From a virus: a DNA stretch of 64,000 bases. A program made the position numbers and the translations under genes. Positions within the stretch are counted from its first letter, which is position 1. Every line of letters starts with the position of its first letter. The notes under the pieces are model-generated. The model was given only the letters and a program-made list of their open reading frames with translations, did not search any database and was not told the origin of the DNA. The stretch spans positions 124,001-188,000 of the IMG/VR virus record IMGVR_UViG_3300010160_000023; one strand, 5' to 3'. Shown here one piece after another: positions 6,051-57,575 of this stretch.

Positions 6051-6054
6051 TTTT

Positions 6055-7213: not shown

Positions 7214-7227
7214 ATAAGGAAAAACGT

Positions 7228-7824: not shown

Positions 7825-7855
7825 TTTTTAATCAATAAAATTCAAAAGGGAAATT

Positions 7856-8434: not shown

Positions 8435-8435
8435 A

Positions 8436-10449: not shown

Positions 10450-10653
10450 ATGCCAAAATACTATGTTAAGTCTGGTCAAATCAAATTTATTATAGATTCA
10501 AAAGATCATATAACTGCTATTTTAGCAACTCTTAAGCATTATGAAGGAAAAGGGGTCATGACAGGACTTAAAATATGTATTTCTGAGAATGGATTTGATG
10601 ATTTTCATAAATGGACATGCTATGATACAGACAAGTATATAAAGGAAATATAA
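10450..10653 (+). CDS. Small hypothetical protein
   Basis: 67 residues with a probable alpha/beta fold (KYYVKSGQIKFIIDSKDHIT, then LKICISENGFDDFHKWTCYD). No recognised motif. The start follows the previous stop by 7 bases and its stop overlaps the ATG of the GMP reductase gene by one base, so it is very likely co-translated with that enzyme. Confidence 0.65.
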   Translation: MPKYYVKSGQIKFIIDSKDHITAILATLKHYEGKGVMTGLKICISENGFDDFHKWTCYDTDKYIKEI

Positions 10654-13974: not shown

Positions 13975-13988
13975 AGGCAAGATTAACA

Positions 13989-14516: not shown

Positions 14517-14558
14517 TATTGGTATTTAATAATTAAAAGGAAACTCTAAGGAACTAAA

Positions 14559-15149
14559 ATGGAAAAAAGTTTTGATTCATTGTCTACATATATATCTCTA
14601 GCTAAAAAAACCATCTCTAAATTTGGACCAAAATTTTACAATGGTCTTTCTACAGAGATGTTAAAAAATGAAGAAGCAATCTCAGATGTTGCCACGGCTT
14701 TGATGTATGCCGATTGGAGATTTGATGAGAATAGAAAGGGTAAAACCGGTTTACAGAAAACACTTTATTCTTATCGTAATCAGTGTGCTATTTGGGCTAT
14801 AAAGACTTATGTTACTACCAAATATAAGCAGAGAAAAAACTATAGCATAGATCAAGATAATGATAATGATCAGAAGTTGGACGCTCTATTACCTGATCTT
14901 AAAGCTCAAAATCCATTAGATATTCTAATAGACAATGAATATAAGAAAGATCTTTCGATTAATATCAAAGAACTTCTGAATAATAATATTCTAAGCGATA
15001 AACAGAAACAACAAATAGAGATGTATTATTTTGATGACGAAACTCTTTCATCAATAGGAGATAAGTTTGGAGTCTCTAGGGAAGCAGTAAGACAGAATAT
15101 CAAACGTGGACTGGAACTAATAAGAGCTTGCGATGAAACTTATGCATAA
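14559..15149 (+). CDS. Phage RNA polymerase sigma factor (sigma70 family)
   Basis: 196 residues. A region-2-like core (ALMYADWRFDENRKGKTGLQ, then YSYRNQCAIWAIKTY) contacts core polymerase and the -10 element in this family, and the C-terminus carries a clear region-4 helix-turn-helix: LSDKQKQQIEMYYFDDETLS and IGDKFGVSREAVRQNIKRGL. Size and layout match small phage late sigma factors such as T4 gp55-type proteins, though no direct homology is claimed. Likely directs polymerase to phage middle or late promoters; GGTGTATAT is the candidate site. Confidence 0.85.
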   Translation: MEKSFDSLSTYISLAKKTISKFGPKFYNGLSTEMLKNEEAISDVATALMYADWRFDENRKGKTGLQKTLYSYRNQCAIWAIKTYVTTKYKQRKNYSIDQDNDNDQKLDALLPDLKAQNPLDILIDNEYKKDLSINIKELLNNNILSDKQKQQIEMYYFDDETLSSIGDKFGVSREAVRQNIKRGLELIRACDETYA

Positions 15150-31864: not shown

Positions 31865-33340
31865 ATGATTTTATGCGATCCTTCGGCAGAAAGAGCCGTA
31901 CTAAGTGGTATTCTCCAATATGGTGAAAATGCCTTCCTTGACATAGCAGACTTGATTCAAGAGTCTACTTTTACTATTGATAGTAATCAAATCATATATC
32001 AATGTATTAAAAATATTTGTGAAAAACAACAACAAAAAACCTCAATAGATATAGCATCGGTTTACTCTGCTGCTCAAGAACTTGGTTTTTCTCATGTTTT
32101 TGCAAAGAAAGAGGAGGCTCAACATTTAAGAGCAGTAAAGGATTTTCCTGTTAATCTTGACAATATTCGTAAGTTTGCAGCTAAAATTAAGAAGCTAGAA
32201 ATAGCAAGACTATTACATAAAGAACTAGAAACCACCCAAGAAAAGCTTCTTGATGTAAATGGTTCAGAACCAATATCATCCATCCTTGGAATAGCTGAAG
32301 ACTCTATTTTCAATTTTGCATCATCATTAAACAATGATGGAGATAATGCTCCAATGTCTGTTGGTGAGGGCATAGAAGAGTATATTCAATTTCTACAAAC
32401 TAATAGAGTAGATCAAGTTGGTATTTCAACAGGATTTCCAGTTTATGATCAAGCTATTGGTGGGGGATTAAGAAAAGGAACGGTCAATGTAATTGCTGCC
32501 AGACCTAAGACTGGAAAAACACTATTAGCAGATAATATGGGATACTATATTGCTAATAAATTAAAAATTCCGGTTCTTAATATGGATACTGAAATGAGTA
32601 AAGAAGATCATCTTAATCGTATTATGGCAATGTCTACAGAGATTGAGATTAATCATATTGAAACTGGTAAGTTTGCTGATTCTCCTATTAATCTTAGAAA
32701 GATAGAGAATGTTGCCAAAGAACTAAAAGAAACTCCACTATCATATAAGATTATTGCAGGAAAACCATTTGATGAGCAGTTGTCGATCATGAGAAGGTGG
32801 ATAGTAAAGGATGTTGGATTAAATGATGATGGAACCGCAAAAGACTGTGTTATATTTTATGACTATTTAAAACTCATGGATTCTGCTGGAATATCTCAGG
32901 ATATGAAAGAGTATCAGGTTTTAGGTTTCATGATGACAGCACTTCATAATTTTGCAGTTAAGTACAGGATTCCAATTGTAGCTTTTATTCAGCTTAATAG
33001 AGATGGAATTACAAAAGAGAGTACCGATACTGCAAGCGGTTCAGATAGGATTATTTGGCTTTGTAGTAACTTTACAATCTTTAAGAGAAAATCAGATGAG
33101 GAGATAGCGGAAGATGCTGGTAAGTCTGGAAATAGGAAGCTAATTCCTATTATTAGCAGACATGGTGGGGGCTTGGATGACAATGATTATATCAATTGTC
33201 ATATGAAGGGTTGGTGTGCCAAGATAGAAGAAGGCAGAACCAAACTAGAAATTGTTCATAATACCCAATCAGATAAGGCTGGTTTTATAGTCAATGAAAA
33301 CGACACAAATGACGAAAAAGAAGAAATACCATTCGTATGA
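31865..33340 (+). CDS. dnaB: Replicative DNA helicase, DnaB family
   Basis: 491 residues. N-terminal domain begins AERAVLSGILQYGENAFLDI, linker, then RecA-like motor with ISTGFPVYDQAIGGGLRKGT, Walker A ARPKTGKTLLAD at about 212, VLNMDTEMSKEDHLNRIMAM, Walker B in CVIFYDYLKLMD and VAFIQLNRDG. Overlaps primase by 47 bases. It unwinds DNA at the phage fork. The C-terminus ends with an acidic tail (NENDTNDEKEEIPF) that may mimic an interaction peptide. Confidence 0.92.
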   Translation: MILCDPSAERAVLSGILQYGENAFLDIADLIQESTFTIDSNQIIYQCIKNICEKQQQKTSIDIASVYSAAQELGFSHVFAKKEEAQHLRAVKDFPVNLDNIRKFAAKIKKLEIARLLHKELETTQEKLLDVNGSEPISSILGIAEDSIFNFASSLNNDGDNAPMSVGEGIEEYIQFLQTNRVDQVGISTGFPVYDQAIGGGLRKGTVNVIAARPKTGKTLLADNMGYYIANKLKIPVLNMDTEMSKEDHLNRIMAMSTEIEINHIETGKFADSPINLRKIENVAKELKETPLSYKIIAGKPFDEQLSIMRRWIVKDVGLNDDGTAKDCVIFYDYLKLMDSAGISQDMKEYQVLGFMMTALHNFAVKYRIPIVAFIQLNRDGITKESTDTASGSDRIIWLCSNFTIFKRKSDEEIAEDAGKSGNRKLIPIISRHGGGLDDNDYINCHMKGWCAKIEEGRTKLEIVHNTQSDKAGFIVNENDTNDEKEEIPFV

Positions 33341-34463
33341 TCAATCTCAACTTAAACATATTTCAGATACTCTATGCGACAACATAGAAGAGCTATTGGC
33401 TGTTTTAGGAGTTGAATCTTATAAGCTTATGGATAAGATGGTCTCAATGAGCTGTCCTATACATGGAGGAGATAATGACTCGGCTTGTAATCTATACCAT
33501 CAAGGAGATTCTTATAGAGGAAATTGGAAATGTAGAACTCATCAATGTGAAGAAACATTTAAGTCTTCTATCATAGGATTCATTAGAGGTTGTTTATCTC
33601 ATAACGAGCATAACTGGAGTAGTCCCGGAGACAAACTATGTTCATTCCAAGAAGCTGTTGATTTTGCCTCAAGCTTTCTTAAACAAGACATATCAGAAAT
33701 AAAGGTTTGTAAAAAGCAAAAAGAGAAGAATATTTTTGTTAATAGTATCAAGTATATAAATACAGAAGTGGTTGATAACTCTCCTAGAGTCACCAAAGAA
33801 CTTATTAAGAAAAGTTTAGATATACCATCAACATATTTTATTTCTAGAGGATTTAGTCCTGGAATATTAAAAACATATGATGTAGGAGAGTGTAGTAATC
33901 CAAATAAAGAGATGTATAATAGGGCGGTAGTTCCAGTATATGATATGGAAAATTCCTATATGGTCGGATGTACTGGACGTAGTATTTTTGAAAAGTGTAC
34001 AAAATGTTCATCTTTTCACGATTCTGCACAAGAATGTCCACCAGAAGAAAAATTATGGCTATTCTCTAAATGGAGACATAGCTCAGGATTTAAAACACAA
34101 GAACATTTATACAACTTTTGTAGAGCTAAAGAAAAAATCAAAAGCTCACATTCTGTAATACTTGTTGAGAGTCCGGGAAATGTTTGGAGACTAGAGGAGT
34201 CGGGAATAAATAATTCGGTGGCTGTATTTGGAGCTTCATTAAGCGATAGACAAAAAATGATTCTGGACACTTCTGGAGCTATGACTATTGTAGTTATGAT
34301 GGACAATGATAGCGCTGGTCACAAAGCAGCTGAACAGATTTACAAAAAGTGTGAAAAGACTTATAATATCAAGACTATCAAAATCAATCATGACGATATA
34401 GGATCAATGACTGTTGAACAAATTAATCAGGAAATACTACCTTTAATTAAAGACTATATATGA
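33294..34463 (+). CDS. dnaG: DNA primase (zinc finger plus Toprim)
   Basis: 389 residues. Zinc-binding end: CPIHGGDNDS (Cys54, His57) with CRTHQC (Cys80, His83, Cys85). Middle region includes VVPVYDMENSYMVGCTGRS and a Cys cluster (KCTKCSS). Toprim motifs: VILVESPGNVWRLEESGINN with catalytic Glu near 290, and VVMMDNDSAG with DxD near 332. It makes RNA primers for the phage fork. ATG 33294 is inside the helicase gene; ATG 33309 is an alternative. Confidence 0.88.
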   Translation: MKTTQMTKKKKYHSYDQSQLKHISDTLCDNIEELLAVLGVESYKLMDKMVSMSCPIHGGDNDSACNLYHQGDSYRGNWKCRTHQCEETFKSSIIGFIRGCLSHNEHNWSSPGDKLCSFQEAVDFASSFLKQDISEIKVCKKQKEKNIFVNSIKYINTEVVDNSPRVTKELIKKSLDIPSTYFISRGFSPGILKTYDVGECSNPNKEMYNRAVVPVYDMENSYMVGCTGRSIFEKCTKCSSFHDSAQECPPEEKLWLFSKWRHSSGFKTQEHLYNFCRAKEKIKSSHSVILVESPGNVWRLEESGINNSVAVFGASLSDRQKMILDTSGAMTIVVMMDNDSAGHKAAEQIYKKCEKTYNIKTIKINHDDIGSMTVEQINQEILPLIKDYI

Positions 34464-35185
34464 TATTAGGAATTTCAGGAAAGAAGCAGTCTGGAAAATC
34501 TACTTCTGGCAATTTTATTTTGTCTGTTTATATGGCTCATCTTAAAATAGCTGAAAAGATTTCCATAAATAATAATGGAGAAATTGTTGTTTCAGATTTA
34601 TTTGGGGATAAAAATTATGCTGGAGTATTTGATATAACAAAACCCAATACTTCTAATGACTATATGTTCAATAAAACATTAGATATGTTACATCCCCATA
34701 TTAGACTATATAGTTTTGCAGATACATTAAAGCAAGATATTTGTATTAATATACTAGGATTAACTTATCAACAGTGCTATGGTTCTGATGAAGATAAAAA
34801 TAATCTCACAGAAATCACATGGGATAATAAACAATTAACTGCTAGAGAAGTTATGGAGATTGTTGGAACAAATATTTTTCGCACTCTTAAAAATAATGTC
34901 TGGATAGAAGCAACCATTAATAAGATCAAAAAAGACAAACCAAAACTAGCTCTTATTGTGGATTGTAGATTTCCTAATGAGGTAGAAAGTATTAAAAATG
35001 CTGATGGAAAAGTGATAAGACTAACAAGAAATCTATTCAATTCTGATGCTGCGGCAGAAGTAGCTTTAGATAAAGAAAATTATGACTGGTCTAATTTCGA
35101 TTATATATGTTCTAATGAAGATATGAATATATATGATCAATGTATGGAAATACAAAAAATTCTAAAAGAGGTGTCCTCATTATAG
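34460..35185 (+). CDS. Deoxynucleoside monophosphate kinase-like
   Basis: 241 residues. P-loop GISGKKQSGKSTSGNFI (Walker A at about 7-15), IRLYSFADTLKQDICINILG, TAREVMEIVGTNIFRTLKNN and LALIVDCRFPNEVESIK are hallmarks of T4 gp1-type dNMP kinases. It raises dNMPs to dNDPs for the phage dNTP pool. ATG overlaps the primase stop (ATGA). Placement among replication genes fits. Confidence 0.88.
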   Translation: MILGISGKKQSGKSTSGNFILSVYMAHLKIAEKISINNNGEIVVSDLFGDKNYAGVFDITKPNTSNDYMFNKTLDMLHPHIRLYSFADTLKQDICINILGLTYQQCYGSDEDKNNLTEITWDNKQLTAREVMEIVGTNIFRTLKNNVWIEATINKIKKDKPKLALIVDCRFPNEVESIKNADGKVIRLTRNLFNSDAAAEVALDKENYDWSNFDYICSNEDMNIYDQCMEIQKILKEVSSL

Positions 35186-36222
35186 TAACATATTTTCGTA
35201 GTAGCTCATATAATACTCATAGTATGTGTGAACAGCAATATTTTGCAGAATACGTGCTTGGTTGGAGAGGGCCATCCGGATTAAAAGCAGATAAGGGGAC
35301 TATAGTACATAAAGTATTAGAAATCTTAGCAGTTATTAAAAAAGCTCTCCAAGACAACCAAGACCACATTGACGATGATATTATTGGTAAATTAAGCACC
35401 AAAAAATATAATCTAAATACTATTATAGAACAAGTTTATAAATACTATTCTGAAGCTAATCCTCACCATAAATGGGCCGTTAAAGATTACAAGGACTGTC
35501 ACGCATGGGTTTACAAAGCAATAGAATTTAACAGTGGGATGTTTGATCCAAGAAATAGGAATATCCTATGTCCAGAACAGCGTTTTGATATAGAGATAAA
35601 AAAGCCTTGGGCAAAGTATTCTTATGACACAGACGAAGGGAAGCTTGAAGGACACTTAGCTTTAAAAGGAACTATTGACTTGATCACCCTCGTCAACGAC
35701 AATACGATTGAGATCATCGACTGGAAAACTGGCCGACGCTTGGATTGGGCGACAGGACAAGAAAAAACCTTAGAGAAATTACAAGATGATCCTCAGTTAA
35801 GAATATACCATTATGCTATTAGTAATCTATATCCTAAGATAGATCATATTATATTTTCAATATACTTCATCAATGATGGTGGTCCCTTTTCAATTTGTTT
35901 CGATAAAAGTGATTTGCCAAAAACAGAAGAAATGCTAAGAAAGAAGTTTGAGATTGTTAAAAATACCAGAAAGCCTAAACTAAATAAAAGCTGGATGTGC
36001 AGTAAGCTATGTCATTTTGGTAAAACTACTTTTGAAAATTCTAATATATTACCACAGATCGAATATCGAGAAAATCAACAATGTTCAGTTGGTTCTGTTA
36101 TGACTAAATGTGAACAGATTAAGCACGATATCGACATGAATGGTATGAATAAAGTTATTGAAGAATATAAACACACCAATCACTCATTTGGAAAGTATAA
36201 AGCTCCCGGAAGTACAGAATGA
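35140..36222 (+). CDS. PD-(D/E)XK nuclease, RecB/Cas4-like
   Basis: 360 residues. SSSYNTHSMCEQQYFAEYVL with a Cys near residue 30, KGTIVHKVLE (motif I His), GTIDLITLVNDNTIEIIDWK followed by TGRR (D and E-x-K of the core, about 177-196) and DDPQLRIYHYA (QxxxY). Late cysteines (MCSKLCHF, QQCSVG, TKC) could with Cys30 hold an Fe-S cluster as in Cas4/AddB. The only ATG is at 35140 in the kinase gene; an ATT/GTA start near 35181 after AGAGGTG is possible. End-processing in recombination is likely. Confidence 0.85.
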   Translation: MYGNTKNSKRGVLIIVTYFRSSSYNTHSMCEQQYFAEYVLGWRGPSGLKADKGTIVHKVLEILAVIKKALQDNQDHIDDDIIGKLSTKKYNLNTIIEQVYKYYSEANPHHKWAVKDYKDCHAWVYKAIEFNSGMFDPRNRNILCPEQRFDIEIKKPWAKYSYDTDEGKLEGHLALKGTIDLITLVNDNTIEIIDWKTGRRLDWATGQEKTLEKLQDDPQLRIYHYAISNLYPKIDHIIFSIYFINDGGPFSICFDKSDLPKTEEMLRKKFEIVKNTRKPKLNKSWMCSKLCHFGKTTFENSNILPQIEYRENQQCSVGSVMTKCEQIKHDIDMNGMNKVIEEYKHTNHSFGKYKAPGSTE

Positions 36223-38084
36223 AAAACTATATACCTTTGCATGTACACTCACATTACAGTTTGCTTGATGGTCTTAGTAAGCCTAGTCAAATAGCAGAAA
36301 GATGCTCCAAGATAGGAGTAAAGTCTTGTGCTATCACAGATCACGGAACTATCTCAGGTTCTGTACAATTTTATCAAGCAGTCAAGAGCAAAGGCATTAA
36401 ACCAATCATAGGTTGTGAAATCTATGTTAGTAAGAATGATTCAACAATCAAGACCAAAGAGAATAATGATCTGAGTCATTTTCTATTATTAGCAAAAAAC
36501 TATGATGGTTGGAAAACTCTAATCAAGATAGTTTCTGAAACTAATAATAAGGATAATTTTTATCATAAGCCAAGACTTAGTCTTGATAAGTTAGCTCCTC
36601 TTTTAGATGGAAATATAATTGGCTTCTGTGGACATCTAGGATCTTCTTTGTCTGATTTAATTCAAGATACCAAAACGGAAATAGATAAAGCTGGAACAGA
36701 ATTTGTTAGTAAAATGAAGTCAATGTTTGGTAAAGAGAATTTTTTCCTTGAAACACAATTAATGGATCAAGAGAATTCCCCAGACCAAATTGAAATGACA
36801 GAACATATTAGAAGGATTGGTAGGATTACTAATACAAAAGTAATCTGCACACCAGATGCTCATTATTGTGAACAGTCAGATTCTATAGATCAAAGAATCC
36901 TGTTATGTAATAATCTCAAGACTACATTGGTAGATATTAATAAAAAATTATTGAACAATGAAAATATCCCCATGGGATGCTTTTTTAAGTCTGATAAATT
37001 CCATATTCTGTCTCCAGAAGAAATGGCCGAAATTCATACTTCTGAGGAGATAGAGAATACCAACTATGTAGATAGTTTGTGTGAAGAATACGATATTCTG
37101 CAAAAGCCAGCATTGCCACCATTCAAATGTCCAGAAGGATATAATCCAGACGAATATTTGAGACAATTATGCCGTAATGGATGGAGAGAGAAAATAGCTA
37201 ATAGTATATCTGTTGAAGAACAAACTCAATATGTAGACCGAATCAAATACGAACTAGAAGTATTGCAGGGTGCTGGTCTGTCTAGCTACTTCTTGATAGT
37301 GTCAGACATAGTTGATCAAGTTCGTAGGTCTGGCTGGCTTCCCGGCCCCGGCAGAGGCTCTGCTGCGGGCTGTCTGGTCTCTTATTTAATTGGTATCACA
37401 TCCATTGACCCGATCCGGTATAATTTAATTTTCGAGAGATTTTATAATTCTGGCCGAAATACAAAAGATCGTATTTCCATGCCAGATATTGATGTTGACG
37501 TACCAATTAATAAAAGAGAAGCTATTATTGAGTATATTAAAGAAAAATATGGTCAAAATAAAGTTTCTCAAATGATTACATATAATACTATGAAGGGAAG
37601 AGGGGCTTTAAAAGAAGTTTTAAGAGTATATGACAACATTTCTTTTGAAGAAATGAACAGAATAACAAAGAATATACCAGATGAAGCTAAAATTGCAGAC
37701 GAATTACAAGAAATGAAGGAAGATACCGGAGAAGCTTCTATTATTCGTTGGGCGCTAGAAAACAATATTGACAAGCTAAAAGAATGGTGTTATATTAATG
37801 AGGACAATGAATTGGCAGGGCCTTTAGCAAAGAGGTTTGAACAGGCAATCAGACTTGAAGGAACCAAATCTAATCAATCTAAACACGCCGCTGGTGTGGT
37901 TATTAGTAGTGAAGATTTATCCTCAGTTTGTCCTATGATATACGATTCCAAAAACCAACAAAGTATTGCTGGTATGGAAATGCAAGATTTAGAGTCTTTG
38001 GGGATTATTAAGTTTGATATTTTGGGTGTAGCGATGCTAGATAAAATTATGAACATATCAGATATCCTAAAAAACGGAGAATAA
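36219..38084 (+). CDS. dnaE: DNA polymerase III alpha-type polymerase, N-terminal part (PHP and catalytic core)
   Basis: 621 residues. PHP domain 1 to about 210: PLHVHSHYSLLDGLSKPSQI, AITDHGTISGSVQFYQ, KPIIGCEIYV, ICTPDAHY, with most PHP metal ligands present. Catalytic core: GPGRGSAAGCLVSYLIG (about 373), MPDIDVDV with two catalytic Asp (about 421-428), and IIKFDILGV holding the third Asp (about 600). It stops 20 residues later, where cellular DnaE continues for hundreds more. The rest is encoded at 38947. No intein start (Cys-x-x-x-x) is visible at its end. Confidence 0.93.
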   Translation: MKNYIPLHVHSHYSLLDGLSKPSQIAERCSKIGVKSCAITDHGTISGSVQFYQAVKSKGIKPIIGCEIYVSKNDSTIKTKENNDLSHFLLLAKNYDGWKTLIKIVSETNNKDNFYHKPRLSLDKLAPLLDGNIIGFCGHLGSSLSDLIQDTKTEIDKAGTEFVSKMKSMFGKENFFLETQLMDQENSPDQIEMTEHIRRIGRITNTKVICTPDAHYCEQSDSIDQRILLCNNLKTTLVDINKKLLNNENIPMGCFFKSDKFHILSPEEMAEIHTSEEIENTNYVDSLCEEYDILQKPALPPFKCPEGYNPDEYLRQLCRNGWREKIANSISVEEQTQYVDRIKYELEVLQGAGLSSYFLIVSDIVDQVRRSGWLPGPGRGSAAGCLVSYLIGITSIDPIRYNLIFERFYNSGRNTKDRISMPDIDVDVPINKREAIIEYIKEKYGQNKVSQMITYNTMKGRGALKEVLRVYDNISFEEMNRITKNIPDEAKIADELQEMKEDTGEASIIRWALENNIDKLKEWCYINEDNELAGPLAKRFEQAIRLEGTKSNQSKHAAGVVISSEDLSSVCPMIYDSKNQQSIAGMEMQDLESLGIIKFDILGVAMLDKIMNISDILKNGE

Positions 38085-38086
38085 CC

Positions 38087-38266
38087 ATGGATAAAAAGTT
38101 TGTTGATGTACCTGTCGGTGGCCGATTTATTATAGGTGGTGTCGAGTTCATCAAAACTGAGTCAGTACGAGTCAGTTGTTGTCAATCTGTTAACGCTCAG
38201 GCTGTTGACAATTCTAATAACCGTCCATTTATCCAGGATGAAACTATAGTTACCGTAAATGCCTAA
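38087..38266 (+). CDS. Small phage protein between the split polymerase halves
   Basis: 59 residues, beginning MDKKFVDVPVGGRFIIGGVE, a beta-rich small-protein pattern seen in many phages (x-F-x-D-V-P-V-G-x-x-F). GGAGAATAACC precedes ATG. It overlaps the exonuclease start by 8 bases. Function unknown; its location inside the polymerase operon may be incidental. Confidence 0.7.
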   Translation: MDKKFVDVPVGGRFIIGGVEFIKTESVRVSCCQSVNAQAVDNSNNRPFIQDETIVTVNA

Positions 38267-38954
38267 TTTCCAAAAAATCTGTGTTTTTGATCTAGAAACG
38301 GATGGAATTAATCCAGACGTTTGTAGTCCGGTTCAAATTGCTGCTGTTATGGTGGATCCTCTTAAATTAGAGGTTATACCAGACTCAGAGTTTAATACTA
38401 ACTTAAGACCTCTCGCTATTCAGGATAATCCTAAATATGATTATTCAGATAGTGATGTTTTAGATTTTCATGCCAAAGTAAGAGGATCTTCAAAAGAAGA
38501 AATTCTTAAAGGTTGGCACGAATATCAAAAGCAGGATCAGGGTTGGAAAATGTTCGTTTCTTATCTTGATATGTATCATACAAGATCGGAAAAGAAGTCT
38601 TGCTTTAGTGCTCCCATAGCTGCTGGATATAACATTAATAGGTTCGACTTAAGGATTATTGAAAGACTAAGTGTCAAGTATAATAATACCAACAAAGAAG
38701 GACGATCAAGCATCTTTTATCCAAGAGATGTTATTGATGTTATGAATGTTATTTTTTATTGGTTTGAAAATTCAAACGAGCTTAAGAACTATACGTTAGA
38801 TAATTTGAGAGACTATCTAGGAATAGATAAAGAAGGTGCCCATGACGCTCTAAAAGACGTTAAGGATACTGCTCAAATTTTGATTAGGTTTCTAAAGCTA
38901 CACAGGACAGTTTCTGCAAAAGTAAAGTTTAGAGGATCATTTTTAAATGACTGA
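38259..38954 (+). CDS. DnaQ-type 3'-5' exonuclease
   Basis: 231 residues. DEDDh-type motifs: KICVFDLETDGINPD (Asp and Glu, motif I, about 10-14), AAGYNINRFDLRIIERLSVK (motif II, Asp about 127) and KEGAHDALKDVKDTAQIL (motif III, His about 195 with the Asp 5 later). It would proofread for the split polymerase. The gene lies exactly between the two polymerase parts and overlaps both neighbours by 8 bases. Confidence 0.9.
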   Translation: MPNFQKICVFDLETDGINPDVCSPVQIAAVMVDPLKLEVIPDSEFNTNLRPLAIQDNPKYDYSDSDVLDFHAKVRGSSKEEILKGWHEYQKQDQGWKMFVSYLDMYHTRSEKKSCFSAPIAAGYNINRFDLRIIERLSVKYNNTNKEGRSSIFYPRDVIDVMNVIFYWFENSNELKNYTLDNLRDYLGIDKEGAHDALKDVKDTAQILIRFLKLHRTVSAKVKFRGSFLND

Positions 38955-40575
38955 GTATTTTGGTTTTGATTGTGGTTGTAGATTTCGTGTTTTAGAGAAG
39001 AAGAACGAAGATTTTCCAAGAATAGATTTTTCTCCTAAAATCGAAACTATTAATTTGGAGTGTTCAAGAACATGGGAATTAATCTCATCAGGCAACACTA
39101 AGGGTTGTTTTCAGTTGGAGTCTAGACTGGGCCAATCTATGGCCAAAAAACTTAAGCCAGAAAATATAGAGCAACTTTCTGCCCTCATTAGTATTATGAG
39201 GCCGGGCTGCTTGGAAGCTTTTAGAGATGGTAAATCTGTATCCAATCACTTTATGGACAAAAAGAATGGTCTAGAGAGTGTTGACTATTTTCATCCCGCT
39301 CTAGAATCTTCATTAAAGTCAAGTTATGGAGAAATGATTTATCAGGAACAGGCAATGGAAATAGCCAAGAATGTTGCTGGTTTTGATCTTAAAGAAGCCG
39401 ATATGCTCAGAAAAGCTATTGGTAAAAAGAAACCAGAAGAAATGGCAAAGGTTAAGAAAAAGTTTTTAGATGGTTCTAAATCTCTAAATATTGTCTCTGA
39501 ATCTCAAGCAGAAGAGATATTTAGCTGGATTGAAAAAAGCCAAAGATACTCCTTTAACAAATCCCATGCTGTTTCATATGCTATTAATGCTTATTTATCA
39601 GCATATACAAAAGCTCATTTTCCAAAGGTGTTCTTTGCTTCATACTTAAAATTTGCTAAAGATAAAATAGATCCACAGCAAGAGATAAAAGAATTGGTCA
39701 GAAATGCCAACGAAATGAGTGTGGATGTTCATATTCCTGATATAAGATTACTTAATGAGTATTTTACAATACATGACAAAAAAATCTTTTTTGGATTAAC
39801 AGATATAAAAGGAGTTGGAGCATCTGTTTATAAGAAGATAAAAGAGCTATCTCAAGACAAAGATATGTATAAAATGTCTTGGATGGAGGTTCTCTTAAAA
39901 ATCTTATTAAGAATTAACTCTACAGCAACCAAATCTCTCATTTCTTGTGGAGCATTAGACTTTGTTAAGATGAATAGAACAGAGATGTTATTTGAGTATG
40001 AAATATGTTCAAGTTTAACTACCAAAGAATTAGAGAATTTTCAGAATTTAGTCAACCAAGGAACATTCAAATCTATTAAAGATGTATTAGTTCATATGGT
40101 TACTACTAAGCTGGCTACTAAAAAGAGATTAGAGGTACTGATCAATCTGATTAAATCCATAGACCATCCACCATACTCTCTTATAGATAAAATAGAGTGG
40201 TTGTCTGATTCTGAGAACTCTTTGCTTGGAGCAGCAATTACATGTTCCAAGTTAGATTCTTACGATATAAGCATGGCAAATACCGATTGTAAAACCTTTA
40301 AAAATTCTGGCTTATCTTCTAATATTATTATTGCAGGAGAAATTTGTAATATTAATGTCGTGAAGACTAAAACAGGAAAAACTCCTGGGCTTGATATGGC
40401 TTTTATTAGTATAGAAGATCAAACAGGAATGTTGGATTCTATTATTATGTTTCCTGAGCAGTGGACAAAGTACAAGACTCATATGTTCATTGGAAATATT
40501 CTGATTTTTACAGGAAATAAGGCCAAGAATAAGGATGGTTTGATTGTTGAAAAATGCTTTAATCCAGTCTCTTGA
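38947..40575 (+). CDS. dnaE: DNA polymerase III alpha-type polymerase, C-terminal part
   Basis: 542 residues. After a short Cys-containing lead (FGFDCGCRFRVLEKK) it continues where the N-terminal part stops: TWELISSGNTKGCFQLESRL, ALISIMRPGCLEAFRDG, GEMIYQEQAMEIAKNVAGFD, LRKAIGKKKPEEMAKVKKKF and QRYSFNKSHAVSYAINAYLS are canonical DnaE finger/palm blocks. GLTDIKGVGASVYKKIKEL is the HhH region and NIIIAGEICNINVVKTKTGK starts the OB domain (about 455-510). It has its own ATG and must assemble with the N-terminal part to be active. Confidence 0.92.
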   Translation: MTEYFGFDCGCRFRVLEKKNEDFPRIDFSPKIETINLECSRTWELISSGNTKGCFQLESRLGQSMAKKLKPENIEQLSALISIMRPGCLEAFRDGKSVSNHFMDKKNGLESVDYFHPALESSLKSSYGEMIYQEQAMEIAKNVAGFDLKEADMLRKAIGKKKPEEMAKVKKKFLDGSKSLNIVSESQAEEIFSWIEKSQRYSFNKSHAVSYAINAYLSAYTKAHFPKVFFASYLKFAKDKIDPQQEIKELVRNANEMSVDVHIPDIRLLNEYFTIHDKKIFFGLTDIKGVGASVYKKIKELSQDKDMYKMSWMEVLLKILLRINSTATKSLISCGALDFVKMNRTEMLFEYEICSSLTTKELENFQNLVNQGTFKSIKDVLVHMVTTKLATKKRLEVLINLIKSIDHPPYSLIDKIEWLSDSENSLLGAAITCSKLDSYDISMANTDCKTFKNSGLSSNIIIAGEICNINVVKTKTGKTPGLDMAFISIEDQTGMLDSIIMFPEQWTKYKTHMFIGNILIFTGNKAKNKDGLIVEKCFNPVS

Positions 40576-40599: not shown

Positions 40600-40641
40600 A
40601 TGTTGTTGCGGACGTTTTTTGTTTTACCAAGGAGTTTGATA

Positions 40642-41013
40642 ATGAATATTACTATTTTGAGAGGAAATCTAGCTAGGGATCCAGAACTTCGCGTTGTGAA
40701 TACTGGAGGTAAGCAGACATCAGTAGTGAATTTTACTATTGCTGTATCTAGGGAATATACCAAGGCTAGTGGAGATAAGGATAAGGTCACATCTTTTATT
40801 AACTGCGAAGCATGGGATACTGGTGCTGAGATGATTGGCTCTTCTTTTAGGAAGGGTGATCTGGTCCTAGTTGAAGGCTCTTTGAGAAACGACACATGGG
40901 AGAAGGACGGTGTTAAGCATAGTAGTTTGAAGGTTCGAGTAAATAATTTCTCGAAGATTACTAAGCTTTCTAAGAATACCAAGACAGAGGAATCAGAAGC
41001 AGTAGCTTTCTGA
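40642..41013 (+). CDS. ssb: Single-stranded DNA-binding protein
   Basis: 123 residues. OB-fold SSB: MNITILRGNLARDPELRVVN, VVNFTIAVSREYTK, SFINCEAWDTGAEMI, FRKGDLVLVEGSLRNDTWEK. The usual acidic-amphipathic tip is weak: it ends in TKTEESEAVAF rather than DDDIPF. ATG 40642 with AAGGAG is clear; an upstream ATG at 40600 overlaps the promoter -10 and is rejected. It binds ssDNA in replication and recombination. Own promoter and terminator suggest separate, high expression. Confidence 0.92.
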   Translation: MNITILRGNLARDPELRVVNTGGKQTSVVNFTIAVSREYTKASGDKDKVTSFINCEAWDTGAEMIGSSFRKGDLVLVEGSLRNDTWEKDGVKHSSLKVRVNNFSKITKLSKNTKTEESEAVAF

Positions 41014-49463: not shown

Positions 49464-52400
49464 TTAATTGCCTTCACAAGGCAATCTTATAAAAGTTGCC
49501 ATACCTTTACTAATAGTTTTATTTGACGTTATAATAATATTAACATCCCGATCTCCTTCTGGTTCAATAAGTTCTATTGTAGGTACTCCCTCTTCTCCTT
49601 CGTCTTTGAAAGTTTTAAAAACTGTTGGGGGTTCTTCTGTAGAACAACTGGTAGAATCTCTTAAGCACGCAACATCTTTAGTAATTAATCTAGTCTTAAT
49701 AAGACCTTCTCCAGAAGATTTTTGAGAAAAGCTATAGACCCCTAAAGGATTTACAGTAAAAGTTTGTTTTGGTTTAATTGGAGGAAAAACATTAAGATTA
49801 TGGGTGGAAAGAAAAGAGATAGTTCTTTTTCTATATCCAACGGGAAGTTCTATCGGGTCTCCCTCTTCTTTCTCTATATGATAATATTTATCTTCAATAG
49901 TCCCTCCTCCTCCACCTCCTAATCCATAAGATGGTAGTGACCCAGAGTAACTATACTTCATAGCCTGACGTACTTTCCATATATACTCATATTTTTTTGG
50001 CACTTTTTGACCAACATCTGCATTATATGTCATTATCACTTCCGTTTGAGTTGCAATTACAGCCCCATTAAAATCAGCAGTAGTATTTCCAGGATCTAAA
50101 CATCCTAAACTACACATTATTTCTGCATAGTCAGATTTATCATCTAAAATAACTGGTGAATCATTACATCTATTCCATGCTGAGTGTATTGTCCAGTATC
50201 TAAATTTGGTTTTGTCCTCTTCGCTTTGTGGAGAACAATTTTGAAATTCTGGCCGTCCGCCTACTGATCCGAGTGTTCTGCTCATGATAAGTAAAGGTGG
50301 TAGCTCACCTGGTCTAATCTCCCATTTCTCAAATTTATAATCTACAATAGTTTTTAATATTCCATCTTCTATCGAATACAATCCTCCAGGAGTATGAGTC
50401 ATGCTACTTCCACCTTCATTCCAATAATATTCAAAATCTGTTTCTATACCAGTAATTGTTTCTCCTTCAACTTGAGTATAGGTTCTAAACCATCTTAATG
50501 TTGGTGGGTCTCCTTCGTCTGGTGGTTCAACAAGAGGACAATAACCACCTCCAGCAAAATCTATACTTTTTCCTTCGGAATGATCAATATTAAACGGTAT
50601 ATTAAGAACACATGGAGTAGTAAAATACTCATATGGAATCCACTCCCAAGCATTCTGACTATCTGTATATTTATCTTTATTTTCTATACCATCAGTACTT
50701 CCAAAGAATGCTCTATAAAGCATTTCATTTTGTGCTTTATAAAAATCTGGAGGAATAACAAACCTACCTTGTTTATCTATACAATGCCAACATGTAAAAT
50801 TATTTGCAATATAGCCGACTGACTTCTCAATATTTGGACTGGCTAATATAAGATTCCCTTTATTATCATAAGTATATCTATCAAAAAATTCTGTATCTAT
50901 TCCTTTAATTTTTCTTGGTAGATTTCGGAATTGAATCTTCAAATTATTTGAGTGTAAGTCTAATACTTCACGAATCTTTTTGACTCCCGTTGTAGATATT
51001 CCATACGGTCTTATATATTCTTCTTCAACGTCAAACAAAGTATCATTAGGAAGCTGATCAAAAGCTATCATTAATTTTTTACAATCATCTTTATTATCTC
51101 CCTGTATGCTTCCATAACGAAAAATTTCATCGTTATCCCAAACCAAATTAGGAAATTTAGTTTTAATAGCAGTTTTTTCTTGTTCTTTTTTAGGATTAAA
51201 ATATATATCTTTTCCACCATCATGCTGATAATATTCATCAGCACCAACACTATTTATTATAGACTCTGCTGCTGGTGGTTGTGGAGTAATATGTGACTTG
51301 TATACAAATTTATCAACAATTGGTGTTGCTTGAGAAGTGACTTTATTTAAAACCCTAACTGTCAATTCATCAGCAATACTACATTTTTGTTCTGGGTCTA
51401 TATTAATCCAATATAGGTCTTTATTTTCTTTATATGATACTTTAATATCTCCAATAACATTAGAATTAGCAGATATTTTAGGTTTAATAACATCAGGAAT
51501 TCCATAAACAAAAATACTCCCGCTAATATGTGGTATTAGATCACTTATTTCATTTTGTATAGTTAAAACTCTACTTAATTCATCCCTTTCTGCATATAAG
51601 GAAGATAGTCTTTGTTTAGTATATTGCTTTGGACAACCAGTAGTTATAGGATATCCACGACTAAAGCATATATTATCATCTGCTTGTAACTCATCATAAT
51701 AAGAGATTAATGAATTAATACCCATAGCATATTCAACTTGATCAATTCCTGTAATTTTAATAGAGACATGATCAGCATCAACTTCTTGAATAAAACTTAA
51801 TCTTGATCTAATCCTATTTATATCTTCCTGATTAAACTTGATAGAAGTAGTATTTAAAAAATCATCAAATATTTTTATTTGTCCAGAAAGTCCAACAAAA
51901 TCAGTTTTAAACTCAGAGTATTTTAATTCTATATAAGTATTGTCTTTTCTATTTTTAATCATGGAACCAATACCCAAAGCACTCTTTAGCTTTTGGACAT
52001 TAACACTATCATCAGCTTCATTTGTTATTAGATTATAATTTTCATTATCAAATTTATAAACATAATCATCAGAAGAATAAGACCATCCTTTAAAATTTCC
52101 TTGTCCTATTATTGCTCTATTACTATCAGAAATATTTTCATTATCTATATCCTGACCAATATCTGCTCGTATAAGTTGATATGTTAAGATTGTATCAGAA
52201 ATCTGATTATTTATCATTTCTTGAGTATCTAATAATTTATTATCTTTTAAACCAATCTTATATAGAGTATCGGCAGTTGTTAGATTAGTACCAGCACCAA
52301 TAGAACCTTCTCCATAGGCTGAAAAATGGCTTTCAGGATCTTTATTAACTATTTTTTCAGAAGAGCTCTTATAAAAAGTCCATTTATTAATATCATTATC

Positions 52401-55400
52401 AGAGACTGTTGTTCTATCATCTTTATAAAGCCAGATAACACTAGAAGGTCCATCCAAATAAACAAAACCAGAGGGGATAGGTTTTTCATCCTTATCTTTA
52501 AGTTCAGAGTCTACTTGTAAAATTGTTTTTATTCCGTTCTTAGTTAAAAAATAAGATTTTCCTAATATTTTTTTAGTAGATTTAGTCCCATCAATATTAA
52601 AACCAATAGTCTCATTAACATCAAAAAAACGATATGGTCTTATGCCATTAATAACTATAGATTTATTATCTTTAAAACATTCTGAGGTAAAATCTCTATC
52701 AACATTATTATATTGTAAAAATTCTAAAGAATCTTGGTTAGGACCCTTTATCCAAGCATTTTCTTTAACAAAATAATATCCATTTTCATCTTTATTAGTT
52801 TGTTTTTCAACAGATATTAAATTGTCTTTTTTAAGGATAATATTATTTATTGTTTGAATACCTACTAATGATATATTTCCAGTAGTAGAAGTTATACTTT
52901 GAGCTAATTTTAAACCACTAGCAGAGGTCATGCCTTTGGCTACTTCTAAATCAGTACCAGTAGGAGAAGCTAGAAGAGAAAAAGAAAAATTCGAAATACT
53001 ATTATTTTTGAGCGATGGAGATATTTTTTCAGCTATATCAGAATCTAGTCTAATATATTTGTATACATTCTTTTTAAGAATTGGAGTATTTGTATATCTA
53101 AAAATTGGAGTTTCAAACTTCCACCAAATAGCTCCATCATTGCTAGCACAAATAATCGCTCTTTCAGCAGATCCAAAATTTTGCTTCCTATATACTGGCT
53201 TGTAAACTTGTGAATTAAGAGCTTGAGTTTGATTAGATAATTTGGTTTCAATGAAATAATTTATGATTGGATCATTTCTTCCTCCAGTACCATACAAACT
53301 TGCCATTAATTCCATTGTAACCATACTACCGGCCAAACCAGCTCCTGTCATCAGGCCACCAAAAACTATAGGCATTAATAAATAAGGAATTAAACTAGGA
53401 AAAGTAGGTGGTACATAAGTTATATTTTTAGTTAACTCATCATCATCATATATACAAGAGCTAGTATTAGCAAAATAATGATAAGGAGCATTAATATTAG
53501 CTTGTGGAATTAAATAATTCTTATTGGTAAAATCACCAATAAACTGAAAACCAATAGAGTTAGTATATGGTATTATACTATCTTGAATAGTTGGTAAATA
53601 AAATGGCATATTAACAAGATTATAATCAATTTTTCCCAAAACATCAGATTTATTCTGAATAGTAGAACGTCGATCATCCGCATTAATTATTACTTCCCAA
53701 CTGCATATACTATTTGATAAAGCATTAGACTTCTCTACTTTCTCAGTTTTTTGTAGACCAGATACTAAATCATTAATATACAAATTATCTAATACTGATA
53801 TTTCATGAGATATAGAGTCTACAACAGCAATATTTAGTATAAATTGAGTATTTTTAAGTGGGACATTATAAAATTTGCCCAAGCTATTTTTGATTTGATT
53901 TAATTGATTGATTTTTATAGCATTTTTGTATTTAGAAATTTCTATATCATTATATCCAGAACAAGCTAATGAGGGTAGACATAGTTCTTTATCTTTTAAG
54001 GTTTCATTATTAGGACTTAAATATCCTAAAGAATTAGAAGTATTATTATCTGGAGAAATAAATTTGTTTGCAAAGTCTGAGAACTTAAAGCTAAAATTAT
54101 ATTTGTAATTTGCTATATTCTCTTGATTTAATAGATATAGTCTTAGAGTATCTGGAGATGTAGTAGTATTGAGATTTTCAACATCAGAAATAAACTTAGT
54201 TAAATCTGGATTATTAATAGAATCTCTATAGGAAGACCCCTCACGAGGCATTTTGGGATTTTTAACATCTAACCAAATTATCAAATTTTTAGGATTAGGA
54301 TAGTTTAAAAAATTAATTTTAATTTCTATATCTCTGATTGTAGTATTATCTGTAATATCTGTGGGAAAGATGTATTTCTTTGTTGGTAGTACGCAACTCT
54401 CAGTTCCAGTAAATTCATCAACCTCACCATTAACTGACCATTGATTCCTAATATCTTCTGTAATAAAATTAGGCTCATCAAACGTTAAAAGATTCTTATA
54501 TCCATATCTACGATCTACAGATATTGGTATCGTAGTATCTGAAGTAACATATATTCTACTTTGATAAATATTAGAAGAACTAGTAAGTGATGGTCTAATA
54601 TCTACTAATCCTGGTCCTTTAAAAGTTAAAGAAGTTGAATGGTAAGCACTAAATATATGATAATCATCTCCAATATAAGTTGTTCCACTAATTTTAACTC
54701 CATTATTTCTAGGATAATAACTACTACTATATGGTATCCATCCAGACTGTGGAACGAATAGTCCTCTAGAGAAATTAATAGTTGTTCCATTTCCAGTAGG
54801 AAGAACCTCTCTTAAGTGACAATATATCCCACTAGAACTTTCCACAGAAGGTTTATTTACACTATTCCTAGTCCAAAGAGTAGGCATAATAGACTCAATG
54901 TTATCACATGGTTCGGGATGTCCCGACATTTTGATGCCTATAGTATCAATAACTGCTTTTTTATATCCTCCATAAGCTTTGATAGAAGGAGCAAATGCTG
55001 TAGAAATCTCTGGTTCTTGATATGTTATTTTTCTATTACGATCATAGCCAGCCAATGTATGATAGTAAAAATCATAGCTATCTCTATAAGATCGGTTAAA
55101 ATCACTATTTCCTAAAATTACATCAAATGGCTTTGCACTTTCATGAGAAATTTTATGACGAAAAAATGATTGACATTGACCAAAATCATAATCAGAATCT
55201 CTCATGTTCTGTAAATCAATATAGTTTAATAGAATCTCTGTATACTTTCCTGGAATAAAATATAGTTTTAGATCAGCATCGCTATCTTGAACAGGAATGT
55301 CTGTTGATCTATTATTACTTAAAAAATCAAATTTTATATCCTTAATTTTGAAAATACCAAGACCATAACCCTCTTGCTGATAATAGATATTTTGAGTATC

Positions 55401-57575
55401 TATATAATTTTCTGAATCAAGAAACCAAACCAAGCCCCTTTTATTAAAAGCTATTTGTTTAATGTTAGAAAAAATATTCTTATTATTTTTCAGAACTGTA
55501 ATAGGATTATTTTGCAGATCAATATCTGGGTCTAGTTGTTCGTTGGGGTCATTGGTAATTTTAATGGTATCTGATTGTATTAGTCCATTTAAAGATCTTG
55601 TACATTTAAGCTCATAGGTTCCTGAGCTTCTAATATAGACTACTGGAGATGAGTCTAAAGAATCAGGATATCTCTTTTGTCTATTTGGATTTCTACTAAA
55701 ATCTTGGAATCTTAAACATTGCGATCCTCCAGTTTGTTCCCAGCTATAAGAAAAATCAGGATTACTATCTTGGTTTATATCAGTACCAGGAATAGATATT
55801 TCTCTATCTGTTGATAAAAACTGTTTATAAATTCCGCTTCCCAAATAAAATGGAGCGGGTTCATCTCTAGTCAAAGAAATATCTGCAAATGGCAAATCAG
55901 AAGTTGCCAGAATATTGGGAGTATCACTTGTTGGATCATAAGTTTTGAATCTTGATATGGATCCTGTTGAGCTAATATCTGTTTCGTAAGTGAAATTACC
56001 AATTTCTATTTTGTGATTATTATAGAATATAGTATTTGGTTGTTTTCCAAGAGCTATATCTTCTGCTTCAATAGAATTATTGTATAAAGAGGTACTATTT
56101 ACTCCAATAAGAGCATGAGGGCCATTAGCTAGGGGTTTTTTATATGTTAAAACAAGTCCATTATTATAAATCTTAGAAGAGTCTGTTTCGCTCAGATCAC
56201 CAATAGATAATTGAACAGGATACTTATTTAAGATTTTTTGAGTAAGAGCAGTATAGCTTTGTATATAATTTCCAGAAATATTTTGTTTGCTAAAGTAAAA
56301 ATTAAATTTAGCATACTTACTCAATATAAAATTAAGAATTTCTTTGAGTTTAGTTATTTCTGTTGCTCTATTCTGTGGAATTGGGTTTATATTAATATAT
56401 TCTTGAACTCTATTATAAATTTCTTCAGTATCTAAAAGATCTATAGTTGTTCGATCTATTAATGGAGAAGAACTTAGGAAATAACAAAGTTTTTGAAAAT
56501 TTAAACTTTTAGTCTTATTCAATCCAGAATTACTTTTAATTCTTCTTAAAGTTAATGTATTATATATTTCTCTATAGATATTGAATAAAGCTGGAGATAG
56601 ATATGTTTTTGATTGTTGTTGTTTTAATTTTGATCTTCTTTTATCGATAATATTATCATAATAAGAAAAACATTCACCATCACTAATCCATATATCAAAG
56701 AGAAAATTATTTTTTATAACGTTGTTCTTATAAAGATAAAATTTAGGAGGATTATTTGTCGGATCATTAGTAGTATTTACTTTAGATAAATCAAATATTT
56801 CACTTTCCCCATTAAATACTGTATCGTTACTAGTTATTAAACTAGCGTCTCTATCTGTTCTTTTCAAGATAGTATCTGTTATTTTTATTAAGATAGTATT
56901 AGCAGTTATTGATTGAGAACCATCTGAGTACGTTAGTGGTTTTTTGGACCTAACAACAGAATTAACTGGTAGCTCTGATAATAAAAATTCTTTAGATATG
57001 GATCTTCTAATATTATTTGAACTAAAATCAGCGCCATTGGATGTTTTTTTATACCAGAATAAGATCCCATACTCTGCTAGTTTTGTTGGAAAAGAAGAAC
57101 TAATATCCCAACTTGCTGTCATTTTACCAACCGGCCTGGGATCACTATTAGTTATCTCATGATTTTGAAAACGATTAGTATCATTAGGTTTGGTGATCCA
57201 CCAATTTTGGAATCTAGGCTCAAATTGAATAAAATCACTTATTCCTAGAATAGGATCTCTTATATTTCTTTTATTTAAAATCGGACTCTTTATTCTTGTT
57301 ATATCTTCTGGAGTTATTATTGCTGGTGTCCAAATATCATAAGAGATAGAACTATCTATCATATCTATTAAATAATTTTTAGATATATCACAACGAGCAG
57401 AATATCCGGACTGATATTTAAAAAACAAGTAAGCTTTGGAAGTGCTGCTAATTTGATCAGGTAAAGAAGTATCATTAAATGATGAAACCTCATCCATTAT
57501 ATTATAGGGTTCCAAATCCTGATACAGAGATTTGCTAAAAATAGAACATTTTTTAGTATTGTTTATCGAGTACAT
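49464..57575 (-). CDS. Giant virion-type structural protein (2703 aa)
   Basis: Single open frame of 2703 residues on the minus strand. Recognisable parts: a PKD/Ig-like domain around 600-665 (FSYSWEQTGGSQCLRFQDFS; SGTYELKCTRSLNGL), a hydrophobic Gly-rich segment around 1393-1427 (IPYLLMPIVFGGLMTGAGLA), further beta-rich domains (for example KISANSNVIGDIKVSYKENK) and a Cys-containing C-terminal region. Rich in Asn, Ser, Thr, Tyr. This fits a tail fibre, tail-tip or baseplate protein of a large phage. It is 2 bases downstream of the next giant gene and probably co-transcribed. Exact role unknown. Confidence 0.75.
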   Translation of the reverse strand: MYSINNTKKCSIFSKSLYQDLEPYNIMDEVSSFNDTSLPDQISSTSKAYLFFKYQSGYSARCDISKNYLIDMIDSSISYDIWTPAIITPEDITRIKSPILNKRNIRDPILGISDFIQFEPRFQNWWITKPNDTNRFQNHEITNSDPRPVGKMTASWDISSSFPTKLAEYGILFWYKKTSNGADFSSNNIRRSISKEFLLSELPVNSVVRSKKPLTYSDGSQSITANTILIKITDTILKRTDRDASLITSNDTVFNGESEIFDLSKVNTTNDPTNNPPKFYLYKNNVIKNNFLFDIWISDGECFSYYDNIIDKRRSKLKQQQSKTYLSPALFNIYREIYNTLTLRRIKSNSGLNKTKSLNFQKLCYFLSSSPLIDRTTIDLLDTEEIYNRVQEYININPIPQNRATEITKLKEILNFILSKYAKFNFYFSKQNISGNYIQSYTALTQKILNKYPVQLSIGDLSETDSSKIYNNGLVLTYKKPLANGPHALIGVNSTSLYNNSIEAEDIALGKQPNTIFYNNHKIEIGNFTYETDISSTGSISRFKTYDPTSDTPNILATSDLPFADISLTRDEPAPFYLGSGIYKQFLSTDREISIPGTDINQDSNPDFSYSWEQTGGSQCLRFQDFSRNPNRQKRYPDSLDSSPVVYIRSSGTYELKCTRSLNGLIQSDTIKITNDPNEQLDPDIDLQNNPITVLKNNKNIFSNIKQIAFNKRGLVWFLDSENYIDTQNIYYQQEGYGLGIFKIKDIKFDFLSNNRSTDIPVQDSDADLKLYFIPGKYTEILLNYIDLQNMRDSDYDFGQCQSFFRHKISHESAKPFDVILGNSDFNRSYRDSYDFYYHTLAGYDRNRKITYQEPEISTAFAPSIKAYGGYKKAVIDTIGIKMSGHPEPCDNIESIMPTLWTRNSVNKPSVESSSGIYCHLREVLPTGNGTTINFSRGLFVPQSGWIPYSSSYYPRNNGVKISGTTYIGDDYHIFSAYHSTSLTFKGPGLVDIRPSLTSSSNIYQSRIYVTSDTTIPISVDRRYGYKNLLTFDEPNFITEDIRNQWSVNGEVDEFTGTESCVLPTKKYIFPTDITDNTTIRDIEIKINFLNYPNPKNLIIWLDVKNPKMPREGSSYRDSINNPDLTKFISDVENLNTTTSPDTLRLYLLNQENIANYKYNFSFKFSDFANKFISPDNNTSNSLGYLSPNNETLKDKELCLPSLACSGYNDIEISKYKNAIKINQLNQIKNSLGKFYNVPLKNTQFILNIAVVDSISHEISVLDNLYINDLVSGLQKTEKVEKSNALSNSICSWEVIINADDRRSTIQNKSDVLGKIDYNLVNMPFYLPTIQDSIIPYTNSIGFQFIGDFTNKNYLIPQANINAPYHYFANTSSCIYDDDELTKNITYVPPTFPSLIPYLLMPIVFGGLMTGAGLAGSMVTMELMASLYGTGGRNDPIINYFIETKLSNQTQALNSQVYKPVYRKQNFGSAERAIICASNDGAIWWKFETPIFRYTNTPILKKNVYKYIRLDSDIAEKISPSLKNNSISNFSFSLLASPTGTDLEVAKGMTSASGLKLAQSITSTTGNISLVGIQTINNIILKKDNLISVEKQTNKDENGYYFVKENAWIKGPNQDSLEFLQYNNVDRDFTSECFKDNKSIVINGIRPYRFFDVNETIGFNIDGTKSTKKILGKSYFLTKNGIKTILQVDSELKDKDEKPIPSGFVYLDGPSSVIWLYKDDRTTVSDNDINKWTFYKSSSEKIVNKDPESHFSAYGEGSIGAGTNLTTADTLYKIGLKDNKLLDTQEMINNQISDTILTYQLIRADIGQDIDNENISDSNRAIIGQGNFKGWSYSSDDYVYKFDNENYNLITNEADDSVNVQKLKSALGIGSMIKNRKDNTYIELKYSEFKTDFVGLSGQIKIFDDFLNTTSIKFNQEDINRIRSRLSFIQEVDADHVSIKITGIDQVEYAMGINSLISYYDELQADDNICFSRGYPITTGCPKQYTKQRLSSLYAERDELSRVLTIQNEISDLIPHISGSIFVYGIPDVIKPKISANSNVIGDIKVSYKENKDLYWINIDPEQKCSIADELTVRVLNKVTSQATPIVDKFVYKSHITPQPPAAESIINSVGADEYYQHDGGKDIYFNPKKEQEKTAIKTKFPNLVWDNDEIFRYGSIQGDNKDDCKKLMIAFDQLPNDTLFDVEEEYIRPYGISTTGVKKIREVLDLHSNNLKIQFRNLPRKIKGIDTEFFDRYTYDNKGNLILASPNIEKSVGYIANNFTCWHCIDKQGRFVIPPDFYKAQNEMLYRAFFGSTDGIENKDKYTDSQNAWEWIPYEYFTTPCVLNIPFNIDHSEGKSIDFAGGGYCPLVEPPDEGDPPTLRWFRTYTQVEGETITGIETDFEYYWNEGGSSMTHTPGGLYSIEDGILKTIVDYKFEKWEIRPGELPPLLIMSRTLGSVGGRPEFQNCSPQSEEDKTKFRYWTIHSAWNRCNDSPVILDDKSDYAEIMCSLGCLDPGNTTADFNGAVIATQTEVIMTYNADVGQKVPKKYEYIWKVRQAMKYSYSGSLPSYGLGGGGGGTIEDKYYHIEKEEGDPIELPVGYRKRTISFLSTHNLNVFPPIKPKQTFTVNPLGVYSFSQKSSGEGLIKTRLITKDVACLRDSTSCSTEEPPTVFKTFKDEGEEGVPTIELIEPEGDRDVNIIITSNKTISKGMATFIRLPCEGN
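49467..49485. terminator. Palindrome at convergent gene ends (candidate bidirectional terminator)
   Basis: ATTGCCTT, CAC, AAGGCAAT: a perfect 8-base stem four bases after the rightward stop and inside the last codons of the leftward giant gene. T runs are poor on both sides, so termination strength is uncertain. Confidence 0.5.

Follow-up and report, generated by a model that had tools for sequence, protein, structure and literature searches.

A DnaE-type polymerase predicted to be encoded in two unspliced halves, with a DnaQ-like exonuclease gene between them, in a clade of phages

We analyzed a stretch of viral DNA of 64,000 nt, hereafter the window, which covers positions 124,001 to 188,000 of the IMG/VR virus record IMGVR_UViG_3300010160_000023, a linear record of 199,884 bases that may be incomplete. 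An earlier note had described in it a DnaE-type polymerase split in two with a DnaQ exonuclease gene between the halves. Our profile searches and the comparison with relatives confirmed this description, and the four ORFs concerned (the N-terminal half, N; a 59-aa ORF; the exonuclease, X; and the C-terminal half, C) were all found where the note had placed them. With their neighbors, they are arranged as follows (window coordinates):

31865-33340, plus strand: replicative helicase of the DnaB type, clustered with the split polymerase genes
33294-34463, plus strand: TOPRIM DNA primase (profile match)
34460-35185, plus strand: deoxynucleoside monophosphate kinase, conserved upstream gene K (profile match, relatives)
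35140-36222, plus strand: PD-(D/E)XK exonuclease, conserved upstream gene E (profile match, relatives)
36219-38084, plus strand: DnaE N half, 621 aa, with PHP, palm and thumb (profiles, E. coli alpha alignment, AlphaFold2/Foldseek)
38085-38946, plus strand: stretch separating N from C, which falls in the palm-to-fingers linker, between E. coli alpha residues 563 and 586 (alignments)
38087-38266, plus strand: 59-aa protein with a weak match to phrog_2183, kept in most relatives and missing in some
38259-38954, plus strand: DnaQ-like DEDDh 3'-5' exonuclease (X), 231 aa (RNase_T match, invariant active site)
38947-40575, plus strand: DnaE C half, 542 aa, with a 24-aa hairpin, fingers, HhH and OB fold (profiles, alignment, AlphaFold2/Foldseek)
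40600-41013, plus strand: single-strand binding protein (SSB), conserved downstream gene B (profile match, relatives)

Besides the helicase, the primase and the SSB, an RNR, a RuvB-like ATPase and a ligase are also encoded. The window further carries a GMP reductase gene (10653-11780; PRK05096, above the curated cut-off) and two giant minus-strand ORFs (49464-57575, 2703 aa, and 57578-63931, 2117 aa), which have more large minus-strand ORFs beside them, toward the ends of the record.

The claim that short overlaps couple the four ORFs stood except at one junction: N and the 59-aa ORF are separated by a gap of 2 bases. In the window DNA, the overlap is 8 bases both between the 59-aa ORF and X and between X and C. 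Among the relatives, the overlap of the small ORF with X measures 8 bases in 81/115 loci, and that of X with C measures 8 or 4 bases in 60/119. These stop-start overlaps suggest that translation at the small ORF-X and X-C junctions may be coupled.

Profile searches matched N to PHP and DNA_pol3_alpha (E=1.7e-73) and C to DNA_pol3_finger (E=3e-44) and HHH_6. On TIGR00594, a model of full-length DnaE with 1022 positions, N covers 1-573 and C covers 581-1021, which leaves about 7 positions between the halves. The full-length PHROG model is likewise shared out between N (41-615) and C (622-1051), and in the alignment with E. coli alpha N corresponds to residues 6-563 and C to residues 586-897 plus the OB region. 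The palm of E. coli alpha gives way to the fingers at about residue 560, which we take to be the boundary in the solved structures, and this places the break in the palm-to-fingers linker. The domain order of Pol III alpha (PHP, palm with three catalytic Asp, fingers, HhH, OB) is thus found intact over two ORFs, and C stops after the OB fold. Judged by these alignments, N and C together are one complete predicted DnaE core, split in the palm-fingers loop.

The residues expected of such an enzyme are divided between the two ORFs. N holds all three catalytic Asp (D423, D425 and D600; codons at 37485, 37491 and 38016) and a complete PHP metal site (H8, H10, D17, H42, E67, H87, H139, D213 and H215). 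It had been noted that N ends about 20 residues past the third catalytic Asp, which agrees with D600 and a last residue at 621. C carries FQLES and an intact YSFNKSH, of which FNKSH occupies residues 203-207 (codons 39553-39567). The catalytic Asp of N are kept in 67/67 aligned relatives, as are F55 and E58 of FQLES and the F, N, S and H of FNKSH; the Lys of FNKSH, present in 55/67, is the exception among the otherwise invariant key residues that we tested. C starts with an extra hairpin of about 24 aa with a CGCxF motif (codons from 38971), whose two Cys and Phe are kept in 63/67 relatives. No other ORF in the genome was found to have a hairpin of this kind close to its start.

Modeled as single chains with AlphaFold2, N and C gave pLDDT values of 91.8 and 90.3. 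Foldseek matched N to the Taq Pol III alpha structure 2hpi (E=3.9e-47) and C to 4iqj_D (E=2.7e-23) and 7pu7_A (E=4.3e-23). Each half folds alone with high confidence, and the two resemble different, complementary portions of the Pol III alpha structures.

The active site of X (DxE, D and HxxxxD) is intact, and D11, E13, D130, H195 and D200 are invariant in the family. Its C-terminal tail has the pattern K-x2-F-x3-F (221-228), with K221, F224 and F228 conserved at 93-98%. X is present between the halves at every locus with a complete region. We considered whether the 59-aa protein is a needed linker or subunit and rejected this, as it is absent in L044, L046 and L187. Extra genes stand between the halves in the distant relatives L195 (5161-5721), L220 (8121-8405) and L279 (8269-8649), and in L104/L105 (two ORFs). 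From the sequence and without a profile match, we take those of L195, L220 and L279 to be uracil-DNA-glycosylase-like, GroES-like and HNH/endonuclease-VII-like, respectively. Since the small ORF is dispensable and the cargo variable, the junction acts like any intergenic site. Among the predicted genes between the halves, the exonuclease alone is constant.

Relatives were collected by three viral-contig scans plus one alignment-based scan, which returned over 200 overlapping loci. The N-X-C order, which the earlier note had proposed to look for in related phages, is kept across 119 loci, a number that counts those with distinct exonuclease sequences. Nearly all loci share the longer order kinase, PDDEXK nuclease, N, small ORF, exonuclease, C and SSB. 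Even distant relatives such as L119 (37% identity in N) and L279 (42%; a contig of a SAR202 MAG) keep N-X-C. N and C are joined in no relative of the window's clade, and every clade relative with a complete region has them as separate ORFs. A tree built from palm plus fingers sets the split-with-exonuclease sequences apart by a branch whose support is 100%. Within this large phage clade, even strongly diverged relatives retain the predicted split in unaltered form.

This clade is known from metagenomic records throughout. No isolated phage lies close to it; the best isolate match is 34% for N and 27% for the exonuclease. The only isolate relatives of the exonuclease are found in Bacteroides phages, where they lie about 14 kb from an intact dnaE. 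From the sample types of the relatives, we read the phages of the clade as water-dwelling. Contigs with the same operon also sit in MAGs of Flavobacteriales, Chitinophagia, Alphaproteobacteria and SAR202, and may be mis-binned phage contigs. The genome of L202 encodes an RIIA-like protein (896 aa, 5894-8584) and a volactin-type actin homologue (13869-14870).

Estimates of dN/dS were 0.037 for N, 0.028 for C and 0.031 for the exonuclease, compared to 0.125 for the small 59-aa ORF. N, C and the exonuclease are under strong purifying selection. The distances of N and C are correlated (r=0.916, and 0.76 as a partial correlation after removing SSB; 73 loci), which fits co-evolution and equally fits co-inheritance in one operon rather than contact.

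A full-length dnaE elsewhere, which the earlier note had named as evidence against its reading, is not present in the window's record, where N is the only DNA_pol3_alpha match among the 199,884 bases. No family A or B polymerase was recognized in that record, where a very diverged one could escape detection. Each of twelve related records, all of them large (the longest has 243,821 bases), has one palm locus and one fingers match and no PolA or PolB; in one of them (G008), the palm locus, that is the N gene, is broken into pieces. We found no beta clamp in the phage records examined, and no clamp loader of the delta-prime/tau type in the window's record.

Profile searches of N and C in the window detected neither intein nor homing domains, and Rfam gave no intron match at the break; an intein or intron at this point is largely refuted by these searches. 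Such elements are seen at other places in the polymerase genes of relatives. PF14890 (Intein_splicing) gave split-intein matches within those of L063, L115 and L161. A split intein lies between FNK and SHAVSY of the C half in L063:4112-6999, L116:8711-11373, L161:6690-9640 and L068, about 3 residues from the cyanobacterial DnaE split-intein site; added to the permanent palm/fingers break, it leaves the polymerase in three gene pieces. L115:5941-9071 has another three-piece polymerase, in which the split intein sits in the N half at about residue 380. In L112:5983-8982, L167:2752-5823 and L278:1861-4932, the catalytic PDIDVD motif of N is interrupted, and about 770 bases separate the resulting pieces. 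This break had no Rfam intron match in L112 and L167 and looks like an unlisted intron or split element. The C half and the PDDEXK nuclease gene also have in-frame inteins or intein-like insertions among the relatives (L058:5989-8325, L220:9072-11987 and L150:1966-3957), and those of L220 and L150 have LAGLIDADG domains.

These observations bear on whether the split is what it seems. A normal dnaE divided by a sequencing or assembly artefact has nothing in its favor beyond the rarity of the arrangement, and its probability is practically negligible: the 119 loci come from different samples and have conserved genes between the halves, and their number excludes chance or sequencing error as the source of the split. 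The presence of split inteins elsewhere in these two genes among the relatives (matches in L063, L115 and L161) would agree with a break that is the remnant of a mobile element, an intein or intron, with halves that are still ligated. We consider this highly improbable given the absence of such elements from the window's halves and the conserved proteins encoded in the interval, and the relatives with split inteins have the palm/fingers break as well, itself without an intein. The broken N gene of one relative (L052/G008), possibly an assembly error, could be taken to mean that dnaE is degenerating or non-functional and that a host polymerase copies the phage. Against this stand dN/dS values of 0.03-0.04, invariant catalytic residues and the retention of the genes in every large related record checked, and we hold such decay to be most improbable.

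The best overall explanation, and to us a very probable one, is a family C (DnaE-type) replicative polymerase in two unspliced chains with an exonuclease proofreader. We infer that the halves must act together because the catalytic Asp lie in N and the fingers and FNKSH in C, near-invariant on both sides, and no other polymerase was recognized. Neither half is expected to polymerize alone, so that an active enzyme would have to form from both chains. Because neither an intein nor an intron was found at the break, N and C most likely come together in trans to form an enzyme that needs both. That the two chains make an active polymerase appears very probable from the gene sequences. Chain N would bring PHP, palm, thumb and the three catalytic Asp, and chain C the fingers, HhH, OB fold and the residues contacting nucleotide and template. 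A break in a surface loop would leave each chain as a set of whole domains, and an active site would require contact between the N palm and the C fingers. Translation would follow the order N, small ORF (where present), exonuclease and C over stop-start overlaps of 4-8 bases, and the chains would be made together, probably assembling during synthesis. The DEDDh exonuclease would serve as the proofreader of this polymerase.

The role of X could also be read differently. The PHP domain of the window (36219-36866) keeps its full metal site despite the DnaQ-type exonuclease alongside. A PHP with all nine metal-site residues, as here, is counted as an active proofreader, and most DnaE1-only bacteria carry one proofreader, PHP or DnaQ, two being uncommon (PMC12926913). 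Two proofreaders are thus possible in the window; alternatively, the PHP of N would proofread for the two-chain polymerase, and X would be an operon neighbor, a general repair or recombination nuclease that is neither proofreader nor stable subunit. Other genes can indeed occupy the interval between the halves, but every complete region has X there. About 10/67 relatives have other residues in place of the first PHP histidines, and the PHP match is only partial in L119 and L279, whereas the DEDDh residues of X never change. We favor X as the main proofreader because of this contrast, and consider a mere neighbor unlikely. The exonuclease probably proofreads for the split polymerase, and the chances that N, C and X form a stable three-chain particle appear evenly balanced from their sequences. 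More tentatively, a three-chain replicase may assemble in translation order, with the CGCxF hairpin and the tail of X docking, work without a phage clamp or clamp loader and be the only replicase of the clade; we regard this fuller picture as possible though doubtful.

Splits at nearly the same point occur in two isolated phages. In Mycobacterium phage Fowlmouth, gp85 and gp86 are adjacent genes with an ATGA overlap, and in Rossellomorea phage phiT1, a 49-aa ORF stands between gp20 and gp18. As in the window, no splicing element is annotated in either; unlike the window, both lack an exonuclease between the halves and the CGCxF hairpin. The tree places Fowlmouth outside the window's clade, together with Gordonia phage Lambo (100%), whose polymerase is intact, and the Fowlmouth split is therefore independent. 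PhiT1 also falls outside the clade, at an exact tree position that is poorly supported. Its 49-aa ORF has no detectable kinship to the 59-aa protein of the window, and no relatives of its half were found in viral contigs. As these two breaks, both outside the clade, come to within a few residues of that in the window, the palm-fingers loop is a recurrent breakpoint. The remaining sampled isolates have dnaE intact or broken elsewhere. The latter include Bacillus phage Jayan (L213), a Staphylococcus SPbeta-like phage (L209), Bacillus phage vB_BpsS-140 (L281) and Bacillus phage KLEB27-3 (L214), with break sites at the catalytic motif, at the PHP/palm border and in the early fingers with an HNH gene. 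The simplest path to the window's arrangement would be a start-stop break in the linker, followed by the entry of other genes.

We know of no characterized replicative polymerase whose palm and fingers are permanently on different chains. If the enzyme is active, the palm-fingers hinge of family C tolerates a clean break that independent phage lineages have used; repeated independent splits at the linker, if true, would mean that family C polymerases can assemble in trans at this hinge. The system would offer a natural test of how such a polymerase assembles and of whether its proofreader is built along with it. The split will be missed by annotation pipelines, or each half labeled a complete polymerase, as with the Fowlmouth and phiT1 genes.

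Compared to the bacterial Pol III alpha of E. coli, Thermus aquaticus and M. tuberculosis, the window has the same domains, order and catalytic residues, and E. coli likewise has a separate DnaQ-type exonuclease. The differences are two chains instead of one, the missing tau-binding C-terminal domain after OB and the extra N-terminal CGCxF hairpin of chain C. The cyanobacterial split DnaE (Ssp/Npu) is also encoded by two genes, but it is broken just before CFNKSH and rejoined by a split intein. The break in the window is unlike it, as the earlier note had held: it lies about 180 aligned residues upstream of FNKSH, which is intact in C, and neither a break at FNKSH nor a split intein on both halves was found. 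Of the NCBIfam models NF007079 and NF005616, which we take to be the two cyanobacterial DnaE halves, the former ends within C (31-204) and the latter begins there (202-535).

Genes fractured by split inteins were reportedly described by Dassa and colleagues in 2009. They resemble the window in being phage-type genes with ORFs between the parts; the window differs in having no intein at the break, and a replication-type exonuclease and a small ORF in place of a homing endonuclease. A literature search of limited coverage for a described N-X-C arrangement returned only the minimal split Pol III of jumbo phages. In group 2.2 jumbo phages, a minimal Pol III alpha is made as two proteins, the NTP-binding and the Mg/template-binding parts, without other Pol III domains, from distant genes and alongside a family B polymerase (Iyer et al., 2021; PMC7824862). 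By that paper's description, the window differs in its full PHP-to-OB core and in its single operon, with halves 862 bases apart; PHP and OB are present, and the genome has no PF00136 match. In PolC and Bacteroidetes DnaE1, the exonuclease domain belongs to the same polypeptide, inserted in PHP or fused N-terminally (PMC3919608). The proofreader thus lies inside the polymerase locus in these enzymes as in the window, where it is a separate gene.
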